Shown: piece after piece, positions 26,961 to 46,700 of the stretch | Layout: the number at the start of each line of letters is the position of its first letter | How positions within the stretch are numbered: position 1 is the stretch's first letter | Notes under the pieces: generated by a model | What the model was told of the DNA's origin: nothing | Seen by the model: the letters and a program-made list of their open reading frames with translations, nothing else | Databases searched by the model: none | Program-made: the position numbers and the translations under genes | From: Aristolochia californica | Lineage: Eukaryota > Streptophyta > Magnoliopsida > Piperales > Aristolochiaceae | DNA: 64,000 nt | Direction: 5' to 3' | Assembly (NCBI GenBank): GCA_029961685.1 | Contig: JARWKL010000015.1 | Coordinates: 14,196,801-14,260,800 of the forward strand

Positions 26961-27703
26961 TTACCATGATCTATGATTTTTATGTCCACTTTTTGTAAAA
27001 AGGACAAAGTGGGTTGTTTGGCTCTCGTAAATATCCCATCGGACATTAACTTGAGAATTTAATTTTTTCTACACCTTTAAAGTTTTGTATCATTAGGTCA
27101 TTTGCATCTTTAACATGTTTCAGACATGCATATCATCATTTAAAACATGTTAGGATCAATTAGAAATCTCTTTCTTATAGAATTCCACCAAGCTATTAGG
27201 GGTTGTACTAGTGGAATTTCCCAAACATGGATAAAAAAACTTTGGTGTTCATTTTAAGTGCGTGAAATAATTTTATTTACTAAGTTTTCAATTTTTAGCG
27301 TACATAAACTCCAAAATTTTAATTTTGTTGTGATCTATTTGCCTTATCTTTTTGTTTACGAGAAAAATGGGAGAGTGAAAAATCAAGTTTGGATTTGAAA
27401 AAAAATTGAACATCCAAAATGGACAAGCACAAATGTTGGGTGAGATCATTTGAAAAAAGTATCTGTGATTTTTAAGGATTTTAAACTCTTTTAAATTTTT
27501 ATATATTAGGTTTTGCAATCGTCGGAAGAGGGGGGGCGAGGCATTTTTAACTGAGTGTTGACTCCAAAACCATAAGTAATTTCTAAAAAAATTATAGCCG
27601 TTACACATTATTAATCGATCAAAACATTTACGATGATCTATGATTGTTAGGACCGCTTTTTGTAAAATAGGCAAAATGTGGTTTGTTTGGCTCTGGTAAA
27701 TAT

Positions 27704-27970
27704 CCCACCGCACGTTAACTTGAGAATTTAATTTTTTCTACTTCTAGAAATTTTTGGATCATTAGGTCATTTTGATTATCAATATGATTTAGGCATGCAT
27801 ATCATAATTTAAAACTTGTTAGGGTTTAGGTTAAATTTCCCACCGCATGATAACTTGAGAATTTAATTTTTTCTACTTCTAGAAATTTTTGTATCATTCG
27901 GTCATTTGCATCTTCAACATGATTCAGGCATGCATATCCAAATTTAAAACTTGTTAGGATCAATAGAAAT
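27704..27970. repeat. 135-bp sub-monomer tandem duplication
   Basis: CCCACCGCA to AAAACTTGTTAGG occurs twice (from 27704 and from 27839). The join reads GTTAGGGTTTAGGTTAAAT near 27820. Confidence 0.88.
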
Positions 27971-29203
27971 CTCTTTCTTATAAAATTCAACCAAGCTATT
28001 AGGGGTTGTACTAGTGGAATTTCCCCAAACATGGAAACAAAATTTTATTGTTGATTTTTAGTGCGTGATATAATTTTCTTCACTTAGTTTTCTACTTTTT
28101 ACCTACATAAACTCAAAATATTTAAAATTGGTGTGATCTATTTGCCCTATCTTTTTTTTACGAGAAAAATAGGAGAGTGAAAACTCAAGTTTGGATTTGA
28201 AACAAAATTGAACATCCAAATTGGAAATGCACAAATGCTAAGAGAGATAATTCCAAAAAGTATATGTGATTTTTAAGGATTGTAAATTCTTTTAGTTTTT
28301 TATATATGAGGTTTTGCAATCATATGAAAATTGAGGGAGGGGAGGGGAGAGGAGGGGGCGAATTGTGGAGGAATTTTTAAATGAGTTTTGATTCCAAAAA
28401 CATAAGTCATTTCTAACAAAAATTATTGGCATTTACACATCATTAATCGATCAAAACATTTACCATGATCTATGATTTTTAGGTCCGCTTTTTTTATGAT
28501 AGGCAAAAGTGGATTGTTTGGCTCTGGTAAATATCCCTCCTCACGTTAATTTGAGAATTTAATTTTTTCTACCCTTGAAATTTTTGTATCATTAGGTCAT
28601 TTGCATTTTTAACATATTTTAGGCATGCATATCATAATTTAAAACATGTTAGGTCCAATTGGAAATCTCTTTCTTTTAATATTCCACCAAACTATTAGGG
28701 GTTGTACTAGTGGAATTTCCCAAAAATGGATAACAAAACTTTGGTGTTCTTTTTAAGTGCATGAAATAATTTTCTTCACTTAGTTTTCAATTTTTAGCAT
28801 ACATAAACTCTAAAATTTTCATTTTGTTGTGATCTATTTGCCTTATCTTTTTGTTTACGAGAAAAAAGGGAGTGTGAAAACTCCAATTTGGATTTGAAAA
28901 AAAATTGAAAATCCAAAATGGAAATGCACAACTGTTGAGTGAGATAATTCGAAAAAGTATCTGTGATTTTTAAGGATTGTAAACTCTTTTATTTTTTTAT
29001 ATATTCGGTTTTGTAATCATCGGAAGAGGGAGGGGCGATGTATTTTTAACTAAGTGTTGACTCCCACACCATAAGTCATTTCTAACAAAAATTATAGCTG
29101 TTACACATCATTAATCGATCAAAACAGTTACGATGACCAATGATTGTTACGTCCGAGTTTTGTAAAATAGGAAAAAAGTGGGTTGTTTGCCTCTGGTAAA
29201 TAT

Positions 29204-29612
29204 CCCACCGCACGTTAACTTGAGAATTTAATTTTTTCTATTTCTATAAATTTTTGGATCTTTAGGTCATTTGCATCTTCAACATCATTCAGGCATGCAT
29301 ATCATAATTTAAAACTTGTTAGGGTTTTTAGGGTAAATATCCCACCGGACGTTAACTTGAGAATTTAATTTTTTCTGTTTCTAGAAATTTTTGGATCATT
29401 AGATCATTTGCATCTTCAACATGATTCAATTATGAATATCATAATTTAAAACTTTTTAGGGTTTAGGGTAAATATCCCACCGCACGTTTACTTGAGAATT
29501 TAATTTTTTCTACTTCTAGAAATTTTTGGATCATTAGGTCACTTGTATCTTCAACATAATTCAGGCATGCATATCCAAATTTTAAACTTGTTAGGATCAA
29601 TTAGAAATCATT
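29204..29612. repeat. 136-bp sub-monomer tandem triplication
   Basis: Starts at 29204, 29341 and 29476 (periods 137 and 135). The joins read TTAGGGTTTTTAGGGTAAAT near 29320 and TTTTAGGGTTTAGGGTAAAT near 29456. Same unit and same join type as at 27704. Confidence 0.88.
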
Positions 29613-35207: not shown

Positions 35208-38200
35208 TGAAGTATTTTTAACTGAGTGTTGATTCCCAAACCATAAGTCATTTCTAACAAAAATTATAGCCGTTACACATCATTAATCGATCAAAACATT
35301 TATGATGATCTATGATTGTGAGGTCACATTTTGTAAAATAAGAAAAAAGTGGGATTTTTGGCTCTGGTAAATATCCCACTGCACCTTAACTTGAGAATTT
35401 AATTTTTCTACTCCCTGAATTTTTGGATCATTAGGTCAATTGCATCTTCAACATGTTTCAGGCATGCATATCCACATTTAAAACATGTTTGGATCAATAA
35501 GAAATCTATTTTTTATAAAATTTCACCAAGCTATTAGGGGTTGTACTAGTGGAATTTCCCCAAACATGGATAACAAAACTTTGGTGTTAATTTTTAGTGC
35601 GTGAAATAATTCTCTTCACTTACATTTATTATAGTTTTCAATTTTTTCCATGCATAAACTCTAAAATTTTCATTTTTTGTGATCTATTTGCCTTATCTTT
35701 TTGTTCAAAGGAAAAATGGGAGAGTGAAAACTCATGTTTGGATTTGAAAAAAAATTGAACATCCAACATGGAAATGCACAAATGCTGAGAGAGATAATTC
35801 CAAAAAGTATCAGTGATTTTTAAGCATTGTAAACTCTTTTACTTTTTTATATATTAGGTTTTGCAATCATTGGAAAAGGGGGAGCGAGGCATTTTTAACT
35901 GAGTGTTGATGCCAAACCATAAGTAATTTCTAACAAAAATTATAGACATTACACATCATTAATCGATCAAAACATTTACGATGATCTATGATTGTTAGGT
36001 CCTCTTTTTGTAAAATAGGCAAAAAGTGGGTTGTTTGGCTCTTGTAAATATCCCACCGCATGTTAACTTGAGAATTTAATTTTTTCAACTCCTTGAAATT
36101 TTTGGATCATTTGGTCATTTGCATCTTCAACATGTTTCAGGCATGCATAACCACATTTAAAACTTGTTAGGATCACTTAGAAATCTCTTTCTTTTAAAAT
36201 TCCTCAAAGCTATTAGGGGTTGTAATTGTGGAATTTTCCAAACATGGATAACAAAACTTTGGTGTTCATTTATAGTGCATGAAATATTGTTCTTCACTTA
36301 CATTTATTATATTTTTCAATTTTTTGCATACATAAACTCTAAAATTTTCATTTTGTTGTGATTAATTTGCCTTATCTTTTTGTTTACGAGAAAAATGGAA
36401 GTGTGAAAACCCGAGTTTGTATTTGAAAAAAAATTGAACATCCATAATGGAATTTTACATATACTGAGAGAGATAATTCTAAAAAGTATCAATGATTGTT
36501 AACTCTTTTAATTTTTTATATCTTAGGTTTTCCAATCATCGGAAAAGAGGGGGTGAGGCATTTTTAACTGACTGTTGACTCTGAAACCAAAAGTCATTTC
36601 TAACAAAAATTACAGCTGTTACACATCATTAATAGATAAAAGCATTTAAGATGATCTATGATTGTTGGGTCCACTTTTTGTAAAATAGGCAAAAAGTGGG
36701 TTGTTTGGCTTTGGTAAATATCCCACTGCACATTAACTTGAGATTTTAATTTTTTCTACTACTTTAAAATTTTGGAGGTCCTTTGCATCTTCAACATGTT
36801 TCAAGCATGCATATTGACATTTAAAACATGTTAGGATCAATTACAAATCACTTTCTTATGAAATTCCACCAAGCAATTACGGGTTGTACTAGTGGAATTT
36901 CTCCACACGCGGATAACAACACTTTGGTGTTCATTTTTAGTGCATGAAATAATTCTCTTCACTTACATTTTTTATAGTTTTATTTTTTTGCAAACATAAA
37001 CTCTAAAATTTTCATTTTGTTGTGATCTATTTGCCTTCTCTTTTTGTTTATGAGAAAACTGGGAGAGTGAAAACACAAGTTTGGATTTGAAAAAGTATTG
37101 AACATTCAAAATGGAAATGCACCAATGCTGAGAAAGATAATTCCCAAAAGTATCTTTCATTTTTAAGGATTGTAAACTCTTTTAGTTTTTTATATATTCG
37201 ATTTTACAATCATCGGAAAAGAGCGGAATATGCATTTTTAACTGAGTGTTGACTCCCAAACCATAAGTCATTTCAACCAAAAATTATAGCCGTTACACAT
37301 CATTAATCGATAAAAAAATTTACGATCATCTATGATTGTTTGGTCCACTTTTTGTAAAATAGGCAAAAAGTGGGTTGATTGGTTCCTGTAAATATCCCAT
37401 CGCATGTTAACTTCAGAATTTAATTTTCTCTACTCCTGGAAATTTTAGGATCAATAGGTCATTTACCTCTTCAACATGTTTCAGGCATGCATATCAACAT
37501 TCAAAACACATTAGGATCAATTAGAAATCTCTTTCTTATAAAATTCCACAAGGCTATTAGGGTTTGTACTTGTGGAATTTCCCCACACGTGGATAACAAA
37601 ACTTTGGTGTTCATTTTAAGTGCATGAAATAATTCTCTTCACTTACATTTATTATAGTTTTCAATTTTTTTCATACATAAATTCTAAAATTTTCATTTTG
37701 TTGTGATCAATTTGCCATATCTTTTTGTTTTCTAGAAAAATGGGAGAGTGAAAACTCAAGTTTGGGTTTGAAAAAATATTGATCATCCAAAATGGAAATG
37801 CAAGAATGCTAAAAGAGATAATTCCAAAAAGTATCTGTTATTTTTAAGGATTGTAAAATTTTTTAGTTTTTTATATATTAGGTTTTGCAATCATCGGAAA
37901 AGGGTGGACGAGGCTTTTTTCACTGAGTGTTGGCTCCCAAACCATATGTCATTGCTAACAAAAATTATAGCCGTTACACATCATTAATCAATCAAAACAT
38001 TTTCGATGATCTATGTTGGTTAGATCTGTTTTTTGTAAAATTGGCAAAAAGTGGGTTGTTTGGCTCTGGTAAAATATCCCACCGCACGTTAACTTGAGAA
38101 TTTAATTTTTTCTACACCTTGAAATTTTTAGATAATTAGGTCATTTGCATCTTCAACATGTTTCAGGCATGCTTATCAACTTTTAAAACATGTTAGGATC

Positions 38201-39442
38201 AATTAGAAATCTCTTTCTTATAAAATTCCACCAAGCTATTAGGGGTTGTACTAGTGGAATATCTCAAACAATGATAACAAAACTTTGGTGTTCATTTTTA
38301 GTACGTGAAATAATTTTATTCACTTACATTTATTATAGTTTTCAATTTTTTTCATACATAAACTCTAAAATTTTCACTTTGTTGTGATCTATTTGCCTTA
38401 TCTTTTTGTTTACGGGAAAAATGAGAGAGAGAAAACTCAAGTTTGGATTTGAAAAAAATATAACATCCAAAATGGAATTGTATAAATATAGAGTGAGATA
38501 ATTCGAAAAAGTATCTGTGATTTTTAATGATTGTAAACTCTTTTAGTTTTTTATATATTAGTTTTTGCAATCATCGGAAAAGGGGGGGCGAGGAATAATT
38601 TTTAGTGCGTGAAATAATTTTCTTCACTTGCATTTATTTCATTTTTCAATTTTTTTGCATACATAAAATACATAAACTCTAAAATTTTCATTTTGTTGCA
38701 TTCTATTCGCCTTACCTTTTTTGTTTACGCGAAAAATGGGAGTGAAAACTCGAGTTTGGATTTGAAAAAAAAATTGGACATCCAAAATGAAAATACACAA
38801 ATGTTGAGTGAGACAATTCCAAAAATTTTCTTTGATTTTTAAGGATTGTGAACTCTTTTAGTTTTTTATATATTAGGTTTTGCAATCATCGGAAAAGAGG
38901 GGGGAAGGGGGGGGGGCGGGTGAGGCATTTTTAACTAAGTATTGACTCCCAAACCATAAGTCATTTGTAACAAAAATTATAGCTGTTACACAACATTAAT
39001 CAATCGAAACATTTACGTTGATCTATGATTGTTAGGTCCATTTTTTGTAAAATTGGCAAAAAGTGGGTTGCTTGGCTCTGGTAAATATCCCACCACTTGT
39101 TAACTTGAGAATTTAATTTTTTCTACTCGAAATTTTTGGATCATTAGGTCATTTGCATTTTCAAGATGTTATAGGCATGCATATCCATGACATTTAAAAC
39201 ATCTTAGGATCAATTAGAAATATTTTTCTTATAAAATTTCACCAAGCTATTAGGCGTTGTTCTAGTGGAATTTCTCACACAAGGATAACAAAACTTTGGT
39301 GTTTATTTTTAGTGCATTGAAATAATTTCCTTCACTTACATTTATTATAGTTGTGAATTTTTTGCATACATAAAATCTAAAATTTTCATTTTGTTGTGAT
39401 CTATTTGCCTGATCTATTTGTTTACGAGAAAATTGAGAGAGT

Positions 39443-39447
39443 GAAAA
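39443..39447. other. Target-site duplication, left copy
   Basis: GAAAA immediately precedes the TG end of the element. The uninterrupted satellite reads GAGTGAAAACTCAAG at this point, so the 5 bp are duplicated from the target. Confidence 0.88.
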
Positions 39448-39875
39448 TGTGACGGTCCCGGATCTGACATGTGGATTCTTTGGGAGGATCTGGGGTCTGC
39501 CACGGGTTACGGGTCTTCCAAGCATTACCGTAGGGTAGTAGGAAGACATGGGGAAGATGAAAACGAAAGATCAAGCCTAAGAGAAGCTTGAAAACCCTAG
39601 AGCTCGTTGAGGAGAACTCTAAGCCTCTTTAAGCTTAATTTAACCTAATTCTTAATACTTCAATGCTTCCTTTTCTCATTACTCTTACCCCTTAAATAGG
39701 ATTCACCCTGTTAGGGTTTAATAAAATATTACAAAAATATCCCTATGAATAAATAATTCCAAAAATATCCCTATTAATAAATAATTCAAAAAATACCCCT
39801 GTGACCTAAAATTGAATTAAAATAAAGTAAATTAAAGAAAACAACTAAAGTAATATTGTTATCGTGTGCATAACA
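39448..39875 (-). repeat. 3' LTR, complete, 428 bp
   Basis: On the minus strand it begins TGTTATGC and ends CGTCACA, a TG...CA structure. The first 205 bp (39671-39875) match the right-hand LTR piece with no indels and six substitutions by eye. The remaining 223 bp (39448-39670) have no partner in the window and would be R plus U5. A TATA-like TATTTAA lies at 39692-39698. Confidence 0.88.
39692..39698 (-). promoter_or_regulatory. TATA-like box in 3' LTR
   Basis: TATTTAA on the minus strand, the counterpart of the box at 42729-42735. From here it would direct transcription leftward out of the element into the satellite. Confidence 0.5.
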
Positions 39876-39889
39876 TTACACCCCCCCGG
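39876..39889 (-). other. Polypurine tract
   Basis: The minus strand reads CCGGGGGGGTGTAA and abuts the LTR start TGTTATG. A G-rich purine run directly upstream of the 3' LTR is the plus-strand primer of LTR retrotransposons. This fixes the element's orientation. Confidence 0.75.
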
Positions 39890-40018
39890 AAGAACGAGTT
39901 TGTCCTCAAGCTCGGAAGTAGTGTCTGTATGCCGACGTCTTCACTAGTGCCCGAGTAGCATCCTCGATAGCCATTTGAGCTGTCTGGACGCCCAAAAACT
40001 GGCGCAAGCATTCCAAGA
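39890..40018 (-). other. Retroelement internal 3' stub
   Basis: A short sequence between the A-rich tract and the polypurine tract. Near its end (about 39885-39945), one frame reads TDTTSELEDKLVLPGG, resembling the extreme C-terminus that Ty3-type polyproteins often carry just before the 3' LTR. Stop codons TAG TGA precede it in this frame, so it is only a remnant. It is probably all that is left of the original gag-pol element. Family assignment is an inference from a very short match. Confidence 0.5.
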
Positions 40019-40035
40019 TTTTTTTATTTTTTTTT
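40019..40035 (-). other. A-rich tract, likely captured poly(A) tail
   Basis: On the minus strand this is nine As, one T, seven As. It lies 54 nt beyond the stop codon of the chimeric frame and exactly between host-derived and retroelement-derived sequence. That is where a poly(A) tail would sit if reverse transcription switched from the element RNA onto a polyadenylated host mRNA. Confidence 0.55.
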
Positions 40036-40089
40036 CAGGTCGAGAGAAAAAATATAAATAATTCTCGTGGACATTCTTCGTTTCGCTGG

Positions 40090-42261
40090 TCAGTAAACAA
40101 ATATCCGATGGCTGATATAGATAGAGCCCATGAAATTAGGGTCTTGCACAATGGTCCCGAGGCCTACGTGGGTCATTGAATGTGCCAGCTGAAAAAGATC
40201 GTGAACCGTCCTTGCCCCTTTACCAACATATTTTTGGACAAGCTCACTACCAATAACACGAATAAAGTAGGCAGCTGGTCTGTTGGCTACAGCTCTAGCT
40301 AAGAGAGCCTTCCCTGTCCATGGAGGACCATAGTAGAGAACTCCCTTTGGTGGGTCAATTCCCAGCTGAACAAACCTATCAGGATGGAGCATAGGCAGCT
40401 CTACCACTGCTCGCATCTTTTCAATCTGCTCCTTACAACCACCAACATCATTGTATGTCACATCAGGCTTTTCTTCAACAGTCATAGTAACACTAGGATC
40501 AATTTTTGGAGGCAAAGGAATCTGAATCTGATATTTGTTGCGGTCAACACCCACGCTCATGCCTTCTTCGATATCTGTTGGAGAAACCTTATCCCCTAAC
40601 CCCACAACCATCTGATTGGACTTGGCTAGCGATTTCAAACCGTCAACAAGCTTGGAAAGATTTGAAGCAACGCTGCATTGGACAGCAACACGCACCATAG
40701 GGGACATAGAGTACTTCCTGGCTCGAATTGGGTGAGCAACTACTTCTTTCGTACCAGTCAAAGTAGCATTAAGGAACTGATCCAATCCAACCAAAGACTT
40801 TGTATGGCCACAAGGAACAACAACATCAGACTCCAGCGCTGTCCCCATCCAAATGATAGTTCTCTGGACGTTGGGTATATATAAATCATTTTGCTGGCCC
40901 GGTGAAAAAGTTGGGCCCATAATGCTAACCATCATACCAGTGCAGACCTTACCAGCAAAGGGACGCCCAAGGGCAATAAATCGACCTTTAGCAGAGGCCA
41001 GAATCATCTGAGAAAAATAAAGGAGAAGTGGACCATCCGGAGCACAATTGCTACCAGGTTTCCCAACTACTGCTACAGTACCACCCGGTAGGTACTCATA
41101 CCCATGATCACCAACCCCTTCAACCATTGCTTGAGCTCCATAGTGACGCACCCAAAACATCTCAGCAGTAGTGCCATTCAGAAATGTGAATGCCTGAGGA
41201 CAGTACCACGTTATGTAGTGAGAAGAGAACTGGCTGTATCCGCCTTGTTCAAGTAACTGTGTTGCACCCTTGAAAGCCTTCACACATTGTATCAGCATGT
41301 CACACGTGGGCCCACGCTCAACATTGCTATTGGTCCACAACACATACTCCACCCGGTCGTATGGGTGAGCCACTGCTTCTGTCCAGGCAAGGTGCACATT
41401 AACCATTTCCCCACTGGCAATAGCCTTCTGTGCAGAACCAAGAAATCTATCTCCATATGTTGCAGAACCAAGAAATGGCAAATTGAACGCACTACCCTGT
41501 GAATCTCCTCTCAAAATAGGGCCATGCGAACTACCTGTTATGATAGCATATATACCACACAACACATTTAACAAGGTCACTGAAAAAAACTTGCATGCAG
41601 TAAGTAGACTAAACTCAGAAAACAATTGGTTCAGCTTCTCATCATCTATGCTATCAACCAGGTTCGTCAAGTACAGGTGCAGCCCTTGGTACTTGTCTCT
41701 AGTCACCTTATAAATCTGCTCAAACCGTCCCTTCAATGTTTGTATCACCTTTGACCTAGCTCCAACAGCTTCAGAAATAAGTTTTTCATCGCCATTTCGA
41801 TTGGTCAAGCTATCAACATTTGCAAACACATTGGCAGTAGTACTGTCAGATTCCACCTTCACATCGGCAACAAGTGCAAGAGGCTTATACGCACTGCTGT
41901 GCACACTAACTTTTTTAAATTTGGCCACTGAACCAAACCCATCAGCATAGACAGCACGCCCATCAGTAGTTTCAGCAGTCAACAGTTTATATTGTGTTGT
42001 TGTCTTGGCACCCGGTTTGGTGCTGGAACCTTGTCCCCCTATTTCTGCCAGGCAAGTGAGACCATCTCTGAGATAAGGCTCAGTTTGAGGCTTGAAACCA
42101 GCACTTAACATCATGGCGGCATTATTGCCATGCCGAGCACATGAAGTAGTTAAAACCTCGTATGCTACCCAAAAGAATTCTATCTCCCTGGGATCCAGAA
42201 AAGGAAACCCTTCCTCTGCAATTTGACAATTCATCTTCGCAAAGGTACTGTACGCATCCAT
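40090..42261 (-). CDS. Chimeric 723-aa retrogene ORF (PABP-GOGAT-EF2-RPT1 fusion)
   Basis: One uninterrupted intronless frame built from pieces of several cytosolic or metabolic host genes. In order: residues 1-175 unassigned; 176-224 like poly(A)-binding protein RRM4; 225-351 unassigned; about 352-404 like the glutamate synthase C-terminal domain; about 405-553 like elongation factor 2 domain II/III; about 552-693 like 26S proteasome ATPase RPT1; 694-723 unassigned. All four recognised pieces are read in their native frame. The ATG at 42261 is the first in frame after a TAA near 42310, with a poor start context (T at -3, G at +4). The stop is TGA at 40090. No piece is a complete functional unit: the EF2 GTPase domain, the rest of RPT1 and nearly all of GOGAT and PABP are missing, and the RPT1 Walker A is altered. 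Expression is possible from the LTR promoter 470 bp upstream, but upstream ATGs would hinder translation. It may be a dead chimera or a young fusion gene; sequence alone cannot decide. Confidence 0.8.
40183..40608 (-). pseudogene. 26S proteasome ATPase RPT1 fragment
   Basis: Residues about 552-693. [67 protein letters not shown] and [15 protein letters not shown] match plant RPT1 (PSMC2 family): the OB-fold region and the first part of the AAA domain. Walker A reads GPPWTGKA instead of GPPGTGKT, and one Met of the usual TMMTVEEKP is missing (in-frame 3-nt loss). Walker B, the arginine finger and the C-terminus are missing because the match ends near residue 693. ATPase activity is therefore not expected. 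Confidence 0.92.
40603..41049 (-). pseudogene. Elongation factor 2 fragment (domain II/III)
   Basis: Residues about 405-553. Recognisable blocks are [85 protein letters not shown] and [18 protein letters not shown]. These follow eEF2 in order and without gaps over about 149 residues, from the end of the GTPase domain region through domain II into domain III. The GTP-binding domain and the diphthamide-bearing domain IV are absent. This is the longest and clearest captured piece. Confidence 0.92.
41050..41208 (-). pseudogene. Glutamate synthase fragment (C-terminal domain)
   Basis: Residues about 352-404 contain [32 protein letters not shown] and [11 protein letters not shown]. The plant NADH-dependent glutamate synthase has the closely similar [28 protein letters not shown] and TVVVLGKTGRN in its glycine-rich beta-helix domain. 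Only about 50 of roughly 2000 residues are present, so it has no enzymatic meaning on its own. Confidence 0.75.
41209..41589 (-). other. Unassigned middle segment of the chimera
   Basis: Residues 225-351, no family recognised. It contains a short hydrophobic stretch ([19 protein letters not shown], residues 225-243) that could be an out-of-frame or UTR translation or a weak membrane segment. It also contains the internal duplication [15 protein letters not shown] (263-277), caused by a 16-bp direct repeat. Motif for searching: [18 protein letters not shown] (303-320). Confidence 0.5.
41590..41736 (-). pseudogene. Poly(A)-binding protein fragment (RRM4)
   Basis: Residues 176-224 include LKGRFEQ, then [18 protein letters not shown] and [18 protein letters not shown]. 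This matches the linker and the start of the fourth RNA-recognition motif of cytoplasmic PABP, where the family has LKGRFEQ, LY(V/L)KNLDD and LFSEFGTITSCK. The RNP2-like LYLTNL is kept. The copy stops before RNP1, so it cannot form a full RRM. Confidence 0.78.
41737..42261 (-). other. Unassigned N-terminal segment of the chimera
   Basis: Residues 1-175. I do not recognise a family. It has no signal peptide and no clear membrane segment. Motifs that could seed a search are [16 protein letters not shown] (residues 22-37) and [18 protein letters not shown] (110-127). It may itself be two or more joined pieces. Confidence 0.5.
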
Positions 42262-42707
42262 AGAAAAACAAACCCACCAAAAAAAAAATTTCCCGATGTC
42301 CCCAAAAAATTAGTTTGACTTTTGGCATCCTCCCAAAAATTTGATCTCGACTTGCATAAACCCAAGCCGAAATTCCCTCATTTGGCCTCTGGTTCGTGGC
42401 TTCCCGAAACAGAGAGCTTGCGTTGCTGATGCTCAGCACCTTGGAGGCTCTTCAGCCGCATGGAACCACCGATTTGAACTAAAAATAGATGGCGTTTCAA
42501 AATCTTACCCCAAATTTCGTTGGATATGGTTCCCCTCTGGGCTTCTGAGGGCAAGGTTGAGGCTGACAAAGAGAATCCGGAAGCCAGAGCCCACCATATT
42601 TGTTTCCGATGGTGCCGACGGAGCCTCCTCCGTGTCCGGTGGCGAAAGGCAAACCTGCGCTAATGTGGCGAATATGGCTGGCACTCGTCGGCCCGTTTCG
42701 ACTGAAT
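42262..42707 (-). other. Leader of the chimeric transcript, origin unknown
   Basis: 446 nt between the LTR piece and the start of the long frame, GC-rich in its outer half and unlike the satellite. It contains several upstream ATGs: a 30-codon upstream frame at 42505-42597, and a 105-codon frame starting at 42439 that overlaps the main start out of frame. I do not recognise the source gene. It could be the 5' UTR or coding sequence of the first captured mRNA. Confidence 0.5.
42505..42597 (-). other. Upstream ORF, 30 codons
   Basis: The first ATG of the predicted LTR-driven transcript opens a short frame starting MVGSGFRILFV and ending in TAA. If the transcript starts near 42707, this uORF precedes the 723-codon frame and would reduce its translation. 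Confidence 0.35.
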
Positions 42708-42912
42708 TTTTCTCATTACTCTTACCCCTTAAATAGGGTTCACCCTGTTAGGGTTTAATAAAATATTACAAAAATATCCCTCTGAATAAATAATTCCAAA
42801 AATATCCCTATTAATAAATAATTCTAAAAATACCCCTGTGACCTAAAACTGAATTAAAATAAAGTAAATTAAAGAAAACAACTAAAGTAATATTGTTATC
42901 GCTTGCATAACA
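42708..42912 (-). repeat. 5' LTR, truncated to 205 bp (U3-like)
   Basis: Matches 39671-39875 base for base in length, with six substitutions counted by eye (about 97 percent identity). It begins TGTTATGC on the minus strand and stops abruptly about 28 nt after the first T of the TATA-like box. The 223 bp that would be R and U5 are missing, and so is a primer-binding site. Confidence 0.88.
42729..42735 (-). promoter_or_regulatory. TATA-like box of LTR promoter
   Basis: TATTTAA in the context CCTATTTAAGGGG on the minus strand. The junction with host-derived leader lies 28 nt from its first T, close to the usual plant TATA-to-start distance. A transcript from it would begin almost exactly at the first captured base. 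Confidence 0.55.
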
Positions 42913-42917
42913 GAAAA
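42913..42917. other. Target-site duplication, right copy
   Basis: GAAAA follows the terminal CA of the element. The satellite then continues CTCATATTTGG in the expected phase. A 5-bp duplication is the usual size for LTR retrotransposon integrase. Confidence 0.88.
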
Positions 42918-43751
42918 CTCATATTTGGATTTGAAAAAAAATTCAACATCCAAAATGGAAAAGCACAAATTATGAGAGAGATAATTCCAAAAAGTATCTG
43001 TGATTTTTAAGGATTGTAAACTCTTATATTTTTTTATATATGAGGTTTTGCAATCATCAGAAAAGCGGAGAGGGGGGGGGAGGCATTTTTATCTGAGTGT
43101 TGACTCCCAAACCATAAATCATTTCTAACAAAAAATATAGTCGTTACACATCATTAATCGATGAAAACATTTATGATGATCTATGATTGTTAGGTCCGCT
43201 TTTTGAAATGTAGGCAAAAAGTGGGTTGTTTGGGTCTGGCAAATATCCCACTGCATGTTAATAAGAGAATTTAATTTTTTCTACTCGAAATGTTTTGATC
43301 ATTCAGTCATTTGCATCTTCTACATGTTTCAGGCATGCATATCCACATTTAAAATATGTTATGATCAATTAGAAATCTCTTTCTTATAAAATTTCACCAA
43401 GTTACTAGGGGTTGTACTAGTGGAATTTCCCAAACATGGATAACAAAACTTTGGTGTTCATTTTTAGTGCATGAAATTATTTTCTTCATTTACATTTTTT
43501 ATAGTTGTCAATTTATTGCATACATAAACTCTAAAATTTTCATTTTGTTGTGATCTATTTGCCTTGGCTTTTTGCTTACAAGAAAAATGGGAGATTGAAA
43601 ACTCAAGTTTGGATGTGAAAAAAAATTGACAACTAAAATGGAAATACACAAATGTGGAGAGAGATAATTCCAAAAAGTGTCTGTGATTTTTAAGGATTGT
43701 AAACTCTTTTAGTTTTTTTATATATTAGGTTTTGCAATAATCGGAAAAGCA

Positions 43752-43779
43752 GGGGGGGGGGGGGGGGGGGGGGGGGGGG
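43752..43779 (+). repeat. Expanded G tract (28 G)
   Basis: Standard monomer position, in the second monomer after the retroelement. Confidence 0.9.
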
Positions 43780-46700
43780 TGTTTTTAACTTAGTGTTGAA
43801 TCCCAAACCATAAATCTTTTCTAACAAAAATTATACCCGTTGCACATCATTAATCGATCGAAAAATGTATGATGATCAATGATTGTTAGCTTGAGAATAG
43901 GCAAAATGTGGGTAGATTGGCTCTGGTAAATATCCCACCACTTGTTAACTAGAGAATTTAATTTTTTCTACTCTTTGAAATTTTTCGATCATTAGGTCAT
44001 TTGCATTTTCAACATGATATAGGCATGCATATCCACCACATTTAAAACATTTTAGGATCAATTAGAAATCTCTTTCTTATAAAATTCCACCAAGCTATTA
44101 GGTGTTGTACTAGTGGAATTTCCAAAACATGGATAACAAAACTTTGGAGTTCATTTTTAGTCCGTGACATAATTTTTTTCACTTACATTTATTAAAGTTT
44201 TCAATATTTTACAAACATAAACTCTAAAATTTTCATTTTGGTGTGATGTATTTGCCTCATCTTTTTGTTTCCACCAAAATGGGAGAGTAAAAACTCAAGT
44301 TTCGATTTGAAAAAAAATTGAACATACAAAATGGAAATGCACAAATGTTGGGAGTGATAATTCCAAAAAGTATCTGTGATTTTTAAGGATTGTAAACTAT
44401 TTTATTTTTTTATCTATTAGGTTTTGAAATCATTTGAAAAATGGGGGGTGAGGCCTTTTTAGCTTAGTGTTGACTCCCAAACCATAAGTTATTTATAAAA
44501 AAAGTTATAGCCATTACGCATCATTAATCAATCAAACCATTTATGATGATCTATGATTGTTAGGTCCACTTTTTTTAAAATAGGTGAAAAGTGGGTTGTT
44601 TGGCTCTGGTAAATATCCCATTGCACGTTAACTTGAGAATTTAATTTTTTCTACTCCTTGAAAATTTTGGGTCATTAGGTCATTTGCATCTTCAACATGT
44701 TTCAAGCATGCATATACACATTTAAACCATGTTAGGATTAATTAGAAATCTCTTTCTTATAAAAGTTCACTAAATTATTAGGGGTTGCACTAGTGGAATT
44801 TTCCAAACATGGATACCAAAACTTTGGTGTTCATTTTTAGAGCATGAAATAATTTTCTTTACTTACATTTATTATAGTTGTCAATTTTTTACATACATAA
44901 ACTCTAAAATTTTCATTTTGTTGTGATCTATTTGCATTGGCTTTTTGTTTACGAGAAAAATGGGAGATTGAAAACTCAAGTTTGGATTTGAAAAAAATTA
45001 AACATCCAAAATAGAAATACACAAATGTGGAGAGAGATAATTCCAAAAAGTGTCTGTGATTTTTAAGGATTGTAAACTCTTTTAGTTTTTTATATATTAG
45101 GTTTTGCAATCATCAGAAAAGCGGGGAGGTGGGAAGGCATTTTTAACTAAGTGTTGAATCCCAAACCATAAATCTTTTCCAACAAAAATTATACCTGTTA
45201 CACATCATTAATCAATCAAAATATTTATGATGATCAATGATTGTTAGGTCCGCTTTTTTTAAAATAGACAAAAAGTGGTTTGCTTGGCTCTGGTAAATAT
45301 CGCACAACTTGTTAACTTGAGAATTTAATTTTTTCTACTCTTTGAAAGTCTTTGATCATTAGGTCATTTGCATCTTCAACATGTTATAGGCATGCATATC
45401 CTCCACATTTAAAACATTTTATGATCAATTAGAAATCTCTTTTTTATAAAATTCCACCAAGCAATTAGGGGTCGTACTAGTGAAATTTCCCAAACATGGA
45501 TAGCAAAACACTGGTGTTCATTTTTTAGTGCGAAAAATATTTTTCTTAACTTACATTTATTATAGTTTTCAATTTTTGGCATACATAAACTCTAGTTTTT
45601 CCATTTTGTTTTGATCTATTTGCCATATCTTTTTATTTGTGAGAAAAATGAGTGAGTGAAAACTCAAGTTTGGATTTGAAAAAAAAAATTAACATCCAAA
45701 ATGGAAATGCACAAATGCTGAGAGAGATAATTCCAAAAAGTATCTGTGATTTTTATGGATTGTAAAATCTTTTAATTTTTTATATATTAGGTTTTGCAAT
45801 CATCGAAAAGGGGGGGCGTGGCATTTTTAACTGAGTGTTTACTCCCAAACCATAAGTCATTTGTAACAAAAAATTTAGCCATTACACATCATTAATCAAT
45901 AAAAACATTTAGGCTGATCAATGTTTGTTAGGTCTGCTTTTTGTAAAATAGGCAAAAAGTGGGTTGTTTGGCTCTGGTAAATATCCCACCACACCTTAAC
46001 TTGAGATTTTAATTTTTTCTACTCCAATAATTTTTTTTATAAATAGGTCATTTGCTTCTTCAACATGTCTTAGGCATCCATATCCACCACATTTAAAACA
46101 TGTTAGGATCAATTATAAATCTCTTTCTTATTAAATTCAACCAAGCTATTAGGGGTTGTACTAGTGGAATTTCCCAAACATTGATAACAAAACTTTGGTG
46201 TTCATTTTTAGTGAGTGAAATAATTTTCTTTTCTTACATTTATTATAGTTTTGAATTTTTTGCATAAATAAACTCTAAAATTTTCATTTTGTCCGATCTA
46301 TTTGCCTTTTCTTTTTGTTTACGAGAAAAATGGGAGAGTGAAAACTCAAGTTTGGATTTGAAAAAATATTGAACATCCAAAATGGAAATGCACAAATTCT
46401 GAGTGAGATAATTCAAAAAAGTATATGTGATTTTTAAGTATTGTAAACTCTTTTAGTTTTTTATATAATAGGTTTTGCAATCATCGGAAAGGGGGGGAGG
46501 GGGAATTTTTAACTAAGTGTTGACTCCCTAACCATAAGTCATTTCTAACAAAAATTATAGCCGTTACACAACATTAATGAATCAACACATTTACGATGAT
46601 CTATGATTGTTAGGTCCATTGTTTTGTAAAATTGGCAAAAACTAGGTTGCTTGGCTTTGGTAAGTATCCCACCACTTGTTAACTTGAGAATTTAATTTTT

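Follow-up and report, generated by a model that had tools for sequence, protein, structure and literature searches.

A small long terminal repeat retrotransposon in Aristolochia californica very probably carries a frame fused from at least five host mRNAs

How does an insertion flanked by terminal repeats come to hold pieces of several housekeeping genes in one open frame, in the place of gag-pol? This question is raised by a 64,000-nt stretch of the genome of Aristolochia californica (assembly GCA_029961685.1, contig JARWKL010000015.1, positions 14,196,801 to 14,260,800 of the forward strand), in the following called the window. Positions 39448-42912 of the window hold a single clean insertion of 3465 bp on the minus strand, embedded in an array of satellite units of ∼680 bp each; all features of the insertion given below lie on this strand. 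We conclude with considerable confidence that the insertion is a non-autonomous long terminal repeat (LTR) retrotransposon, in which a reverse-transcribed frame derived from at least five host mRNAs replaces gag-pol.

The frame is an open reading frame (ORF) of 723 codons (40090-42261), and five host donors were matched within it, all in the same frame and all in sense orientation. From the N-terminus, these are the linker and the start of RRM4 of PABP (ORF residues ∼156-232; 41566-41796), a vacuolar sorting receptor (VSR; residues ∼273-357 with the match running to ∼361; 41191-41445), the GXGXG domain of glutamate synthase (GOGAT; residues ∼358-404, match to ∼407; 41050-41190), eEF2 (residues ∼405-551, match ∼404-553; 40609-41049) and RPT1, the 26S proteasome regulatory subunit 7, whose Walker A region is altered (residues ∼552-696; 40174-40608). 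The RPT1 and eEF2 matches reach E values of 3.4e-78 and 3.8e-42, VSR was found in PDB (2.6e-32) and as Pfam VSR_TRX (4.4e-14), and glutamate synthase as Pfam GXGXG (3.4e-10) and in PDB (2e-9). The weakest match is that to PABP, with E values of 1.5e-10 for the whole sequence and 9.8e-6 for the best single stretch when compared to a yeast PABP chain, 2.1e-6 for TIGR01628, and 0.18 for Pfam RRM_1, which falls under the cut-off of that family. As all five matches share one frame and four are very strong, they are not due to chance. At the level of the protein matches, none of the five segments contains intron-like inserts. A gag or pol domain was not detected by Pfam in the ORF or in ten other open pieces (from 33 pieces of at least 45 codons). 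The first-pass annotation had named PABP, glutamate synthase, eEF2 and RPT1 along with three unidentified segments; all four donors were recovered in the ORF frame by the Pfam, PDB and NCBIfam searches, and VSR, which it had not named, is added as a fifth.

The segments were also checked for an origin in one continuous, already known multidomain gene. A search of ∼5.8 billion proteins, in which the 7996 candidates that shared most words with the query and had 0.55-1.75 times its length were scored, returned 3292 matches. Among the 120 of these that were listed, no protein covered more than 36% of the frame, the aligned part being the RPT1 segment in every case. A full-length relative, had one existed, should have ranked first. 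Thus, the single continuous gene that the first-pass annotation had held against its own proposal is absent among the matches listed.

Both ends of the insertion carry the features of an LTR retrotransposon, namely TG...CA ends with a short target-site duplication (TSD), two LTRs and a polypurine tract. The 3′ LTR (39448-39875) is 428 bp long and bounded by TG...CA, while the incomplete 5′ LTR (42708-42912) comprises 205 bp only, of which 199 positions (97%) are identical to the 3′ copy (6 mismatches; Kimura two-parameter (K2P) distance 0.030). The polypurine-tract region (39876-39889) includes seven G residues and lies 5 nt before the 3′ LTR. Within the ∼130 bp ahead of it, one frame contains an ELEDK...PGG-like motif, which has no match in Pfam and which we take to resemble the end of Ty3/Gypsy polyproteins; this short stretch (39890-40017) is probably a remnant of the C-terminal end of such a polyprotein. 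Between this remnant and the captured sequence, an A-rich run (40018-40036) may be the trace of an mRNA poly(A) tail. A search for an initiator-methionine primer-binding site detected none within 30 nt of the 5′ LTR (best match 6/12 mismatches), and we therefore class the element as a defective copy. In U3, both LTRs also carry a 28-bp tandem repeat in approximately three copies (39720-39804 and 42757-42841), a kind of repeat able to hold promoter elements.

Comparison with the surrounding satellite allowed the insertion event to be read precisely. The insert begins with TG, finishes with CA, and is bracketed by a 5-bp duplication of the target, GAAAA (39443-39447 and 42913-42917). When the flanks are joined with one GAAAA, they restore a continuous satellite unit, and 87 of the 107 matching pieces extend across the join, with identities of 86-88% for the best ones. 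In a second count of 87 distinct satellite places, made after removal of near-duplicates and of matches to the flank of the insertion itself, 71 contain GAAAA within the 26 columns that cover the uninterrupted join, and the GAAAA-bearing forms listed show one copy. The exact local string GAAAACTCATATTTG occurs in 0/87 of the satellite places spanning the join, indicating that the unit struck by the insertion is itself somewhat diverged. With a satellite monomer as query, 93% of the window is covered by 114 matching pieces, which all lie on the plus strand; 39448-42912 is the sole satellite-free gap of more than 150 bp. The ends and the TSD speak for a linear cDNA that integrase inserted. Thus, the LTR pieces, TSD, polypurine tract, borders and 723-codon frame described in the first-pass annotation are all borne out.

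Template switching among packaged mRNAs, by which we infer the chimera arose, agrees with three features: the five segments are all in sense orientation, their donor matches overlap at three junctions, and the element has integrase-type ends. The overlaps amount to 2-5 residues and fall between VSR and GOGAT (∼358-362), GOGAT and eEF2 (∼404-407), and eEF2 and RPT1 (∼552-553), which fits the pattern that microhomology-guided switching would leave. While synthesizing the minus strand inside a virus-like particle, reverse transcriptase would first copy the 3′ LTR with the polypurine tract and the short pol tail, and would then jump between co-packaged mRNAs in the order RPT1, eEF2, glutamate synthase, VSR, PABP and further donors; this direction, from RPT1 toward the N-terminal donors, is suggested by the order of the segments. 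The jumps may have taken place in one round or in several. Of the earlier proposal of a multi-gene chimera built by template switching, the host-gene frame in place of gag-pol is thus supported, and the switching itself is reached by inference.

Several observations weigh against this reading. Overlaps of protein matches can be produced by alignment overrun; one RPT1 match starts as early as residue 537, and the best match to eEF2 begins at ∼392, within the glutamate synthase segment. A derivation of the element from Ty3/Gypsy, which we regard as probable, is based on a motif for which Pfam gave no match. The short 5′ LTR could come from a deletion after insertion. Lastly, ORF residues 1-155, 233-272 and 697-723 as well as a 446-bp leader have no match to a source.

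Residues 1-155 (41797-42261), which have no credible donor match in several searches, resemble the known segments in their codon score, i.e., a score for codon usage learned from the identified donor segments. In the ORF frame this score is 0.098 for residues 1-80 and 0.289 for residues 81-155, and ranges from 0.03 to 0.19 for VSR, GOGAT, eEF2 and RPT1 when each is left out in turn. The corresponding z-values of 3.7 and 4.8 arise partly because shuffled letters contain stops, and we therefore prefer the comparison between segments. Neither Pfam nor NCBIfam gave a match for this stretch, and PDB gave no credible one, with best E values of only 1.1 and 1.9 in a further search. Designed repeat proteins were rejected as relatives, as every single repeat in the alignments shown had an E value above 200. 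Structure modelling of residues 1-172 from the single sequence gave an unusable result, with a mean predicted local distance difference test (pLDDT) score of 33.6. Codon scores lower than those of the known segments, and no clear coding signal, were obtained for residues ∼233-272 (41446-41565; score −0.137; best E value 1.5 in PDB for residues 222-285) and 697-723 (40093-40173; score −0.227). The leader between the 5′ LTR and the ORF (42262-42707; GC 0.49) likewise scored lower, with no coding signal in three frames. Comparison of ten of the 33 open pieces, covering the leader and other frames, to Pfam yielded one chance-level match to TPR_3 (E 0.22).

How the 5′ end was formed is the point at which an alternative survives best. 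The 5′ LTR ends 28 nt past the first T of TATTTAA, which, by the spacing we assume for a TATA-like box, is near the expected transcription start and thus the U3/R border; the rest of the LTR is absent at this end. Because the end sits so close to this presumed start, the 5′ LTR would consist roughly of U3 alone. Under the template-switching reading, the minus strand, having no primer-binding site with which to make the usual second transfer, would join plus-strand strong-stop DNA at about the U3/R border and copy U3 from there to its exact end, resulting in integrable DNA with a U3-only 5′ LTR. This joining would best account for a cDNA that has the exact U3 5′ base and lacks R and U5 at this end. 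The main alternative for the 5′ end is that the 5′ LTR was once complete and that R, U5, the primer site and the leader were lost by a deletion after insertion. Internal deletions are common in LTR elements, and the leader has no match to a source; however, a random deletion would rarely break the LTR approximately at the expected U3/R border, as found here with the break 28 nt past the TATA-like box, and we view such a loss as possible, if rather unlikely.

A second alternative concerns the age of the frame. An older replicating lineage could have gathered the fragments stepwise and kept the ORF open since its protein, or an mRNA free of stops, aided persistence (in the latter case by the lack of premature stops), so that this copy would be a late one with a damaged 5′ end. 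The segments are indeed unequally diverged. The RPT1 segment has 89% identity to lettuce RPT1 over 144 aa, eEF2 is identical at 100/149 aligned residues to Arabidopsis eEF2 (a provisional reference sequence), and VSR at 51/84 residues to the VSR1 chain. In RPT1, 12 of the 145 residues are present in none of the 120 RPT1-like proteins, 11 of 109 near-invariant columns are departed from, including two within the Walker A motif, and one codon that all 120 homologues have is missing. Because housekeeping proteins have changed to this extent while the LTRs are only 3% apart, the pattern suggests that much of the change predates the insertion or that the donors were already diverged paralogues; the latter would yield the same picture as an old lineage.

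In favor of a maintained frame, the ORF has zero internal stops despite the altered RPT1 residues, and five donors share one frame, which would occur in ∼1 of 81 cases if the frames at the junctions were random. In simulations of random change over the whole ORF, a difference of 18% at the amino acid level introduced 6.2 stops on average, with none in ∼1 of 600 runs, a figure that is an extrapolation; at 10% difference, 3.3% of the runs had none. Against it, for the two measurable donors the absence of stops is weak evidence. The simulated joint chance of no stop in RPT1 and eEF2 is 0.075, based on 17 changes for RPT1 and on 40 for eEF2 out of the 49 seen relative to the provisional reference. 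Moreover, the long ORF is what drew the attention of the first-pass annotation to this element. The indels observed have lengths divisible by three (a single codon in RPT1, two codons in eEF2 relative to the provisional reference, and a 30-nt duplication), but this follows from an open frame and is no separate evidence. The duplication is an in-frame one, marked by a 16-nt exact repeat with a spacing of 30 nt at the border of the VSR segment (41431-41476). Selection maintaining the frame is thus no more than possible, and we consider the stepwise older lineage unlikely. More doubtful still is a stronger version, according to which the lineage evolved a new 720-residue protein by serial in-frame stitching of at least five housekeeping cDNAs, with the frame kept under selection while the donors drifted, and according to which the U3-only 5′ LTR may mark a second-strand transfer independent of the primer-binding site.

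Capture of gene pieces at the DNA level, in the style of Pack-MULEs or Helitrons, or recombination inside the element is very improbable: although multi-gene chimeras are reportedly typical of these transposons, the insertion has LTRs with TG...CA ends and a 5-bp TSD, no inverted repeats in 39448-42912 (minimum 14 nt, seed 11; none at 40 nt either), and five sense-oriented donors whose matches are free of intron-like inserts. An assembly artefact or mis-joined contigs, conceivable for an element in a satellite array that is hard to assemble, can practically be dismissed, as the TSD and paired LTRs bracket the insert in full and other monomers show this site without an interruption.

Among known systems, the closest parallel is maize Bs1, which is reportedly an LTR element of ∼3 kb with a 5-bp TSD and a single ORF of more than 700 codons, in which pieces of host genes are joined without their introns. 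Both are thus small LTR elements with host pieces in one long ORF. The three Bs1 donors are said to be a plasma membrane H+-ATPase, a glucanase and a xylan hydrolase, and Bs1 is said to retain a gag piece and complete LTRs. In contrast, the Aristolochia element has other donors, at least five of them, no recognised gag and a U3-only 5′ LTR. It is best read as working like Bs1, presumably with a larger number of donors, and with an unusual 5′ end. LTR-mediated retroposition and chimeric retrogenes of plants likewise involve host mRNA copied via template switching and integrated with a TSD, but usually one donor mRNA per event rather than a chain of at least five. Against this background, the element would be an unusually composite case, as the first-pass annotation put it. 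Pack-MULEs and gene-capturing Helitrons are likewise mobile chimeras of multiple gene fragments; however, they are described as DNA transposons that often keep introns, carry fragments in mixed orientation and have different ends. An identity with either was rejected based on the TG...CA ends with the 5-bp TSD and the lack of terminal inverted repeats. A processed retrogene of the long interspersed nuclear element (LINE) type, with terminal poly(A), a TSD of variable length and no LTRs, was rejected since LTRs at both ends and a 5-bp TSD are found instead.

Further scans of the element gave little. The single Rfam match (22.5 bits versus a cut-off of 80) was rejected, and comparison to viral contigs gave four pattern matches, none of them a relative. 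A bacterial promoter and terminator scan, which is not meant for plants, predicted promoters at about the level of shuffled sequences and 7 terminators versus 3.5. Outside the insertion, the window (1-39447 and 42913-64000) consists of head-to-tail AT-rich satellite units of ∼680 bp with recurring poly-G tracts, and the copies listed for 36000-46000 have 61-92% similarity to their reference copies. The regular spacing is disrupted by a local two-copy tandem of 315 bp (38294-38904), and tandem amplification of 135-137 bp is seen internal to satellite units at 27697-27958 and 29195-29595.

Chimeras with multiple donors are a direct record of the jumps of reverse transcriptase among packaged mRNAs, and raw material for new genes. 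The truncated 5′ LTR provides a test of how an integrable end is formed without a primer-binding site, and the element, which unites five identified donors in a single open frame, allows asking whether selection keeps such frames.

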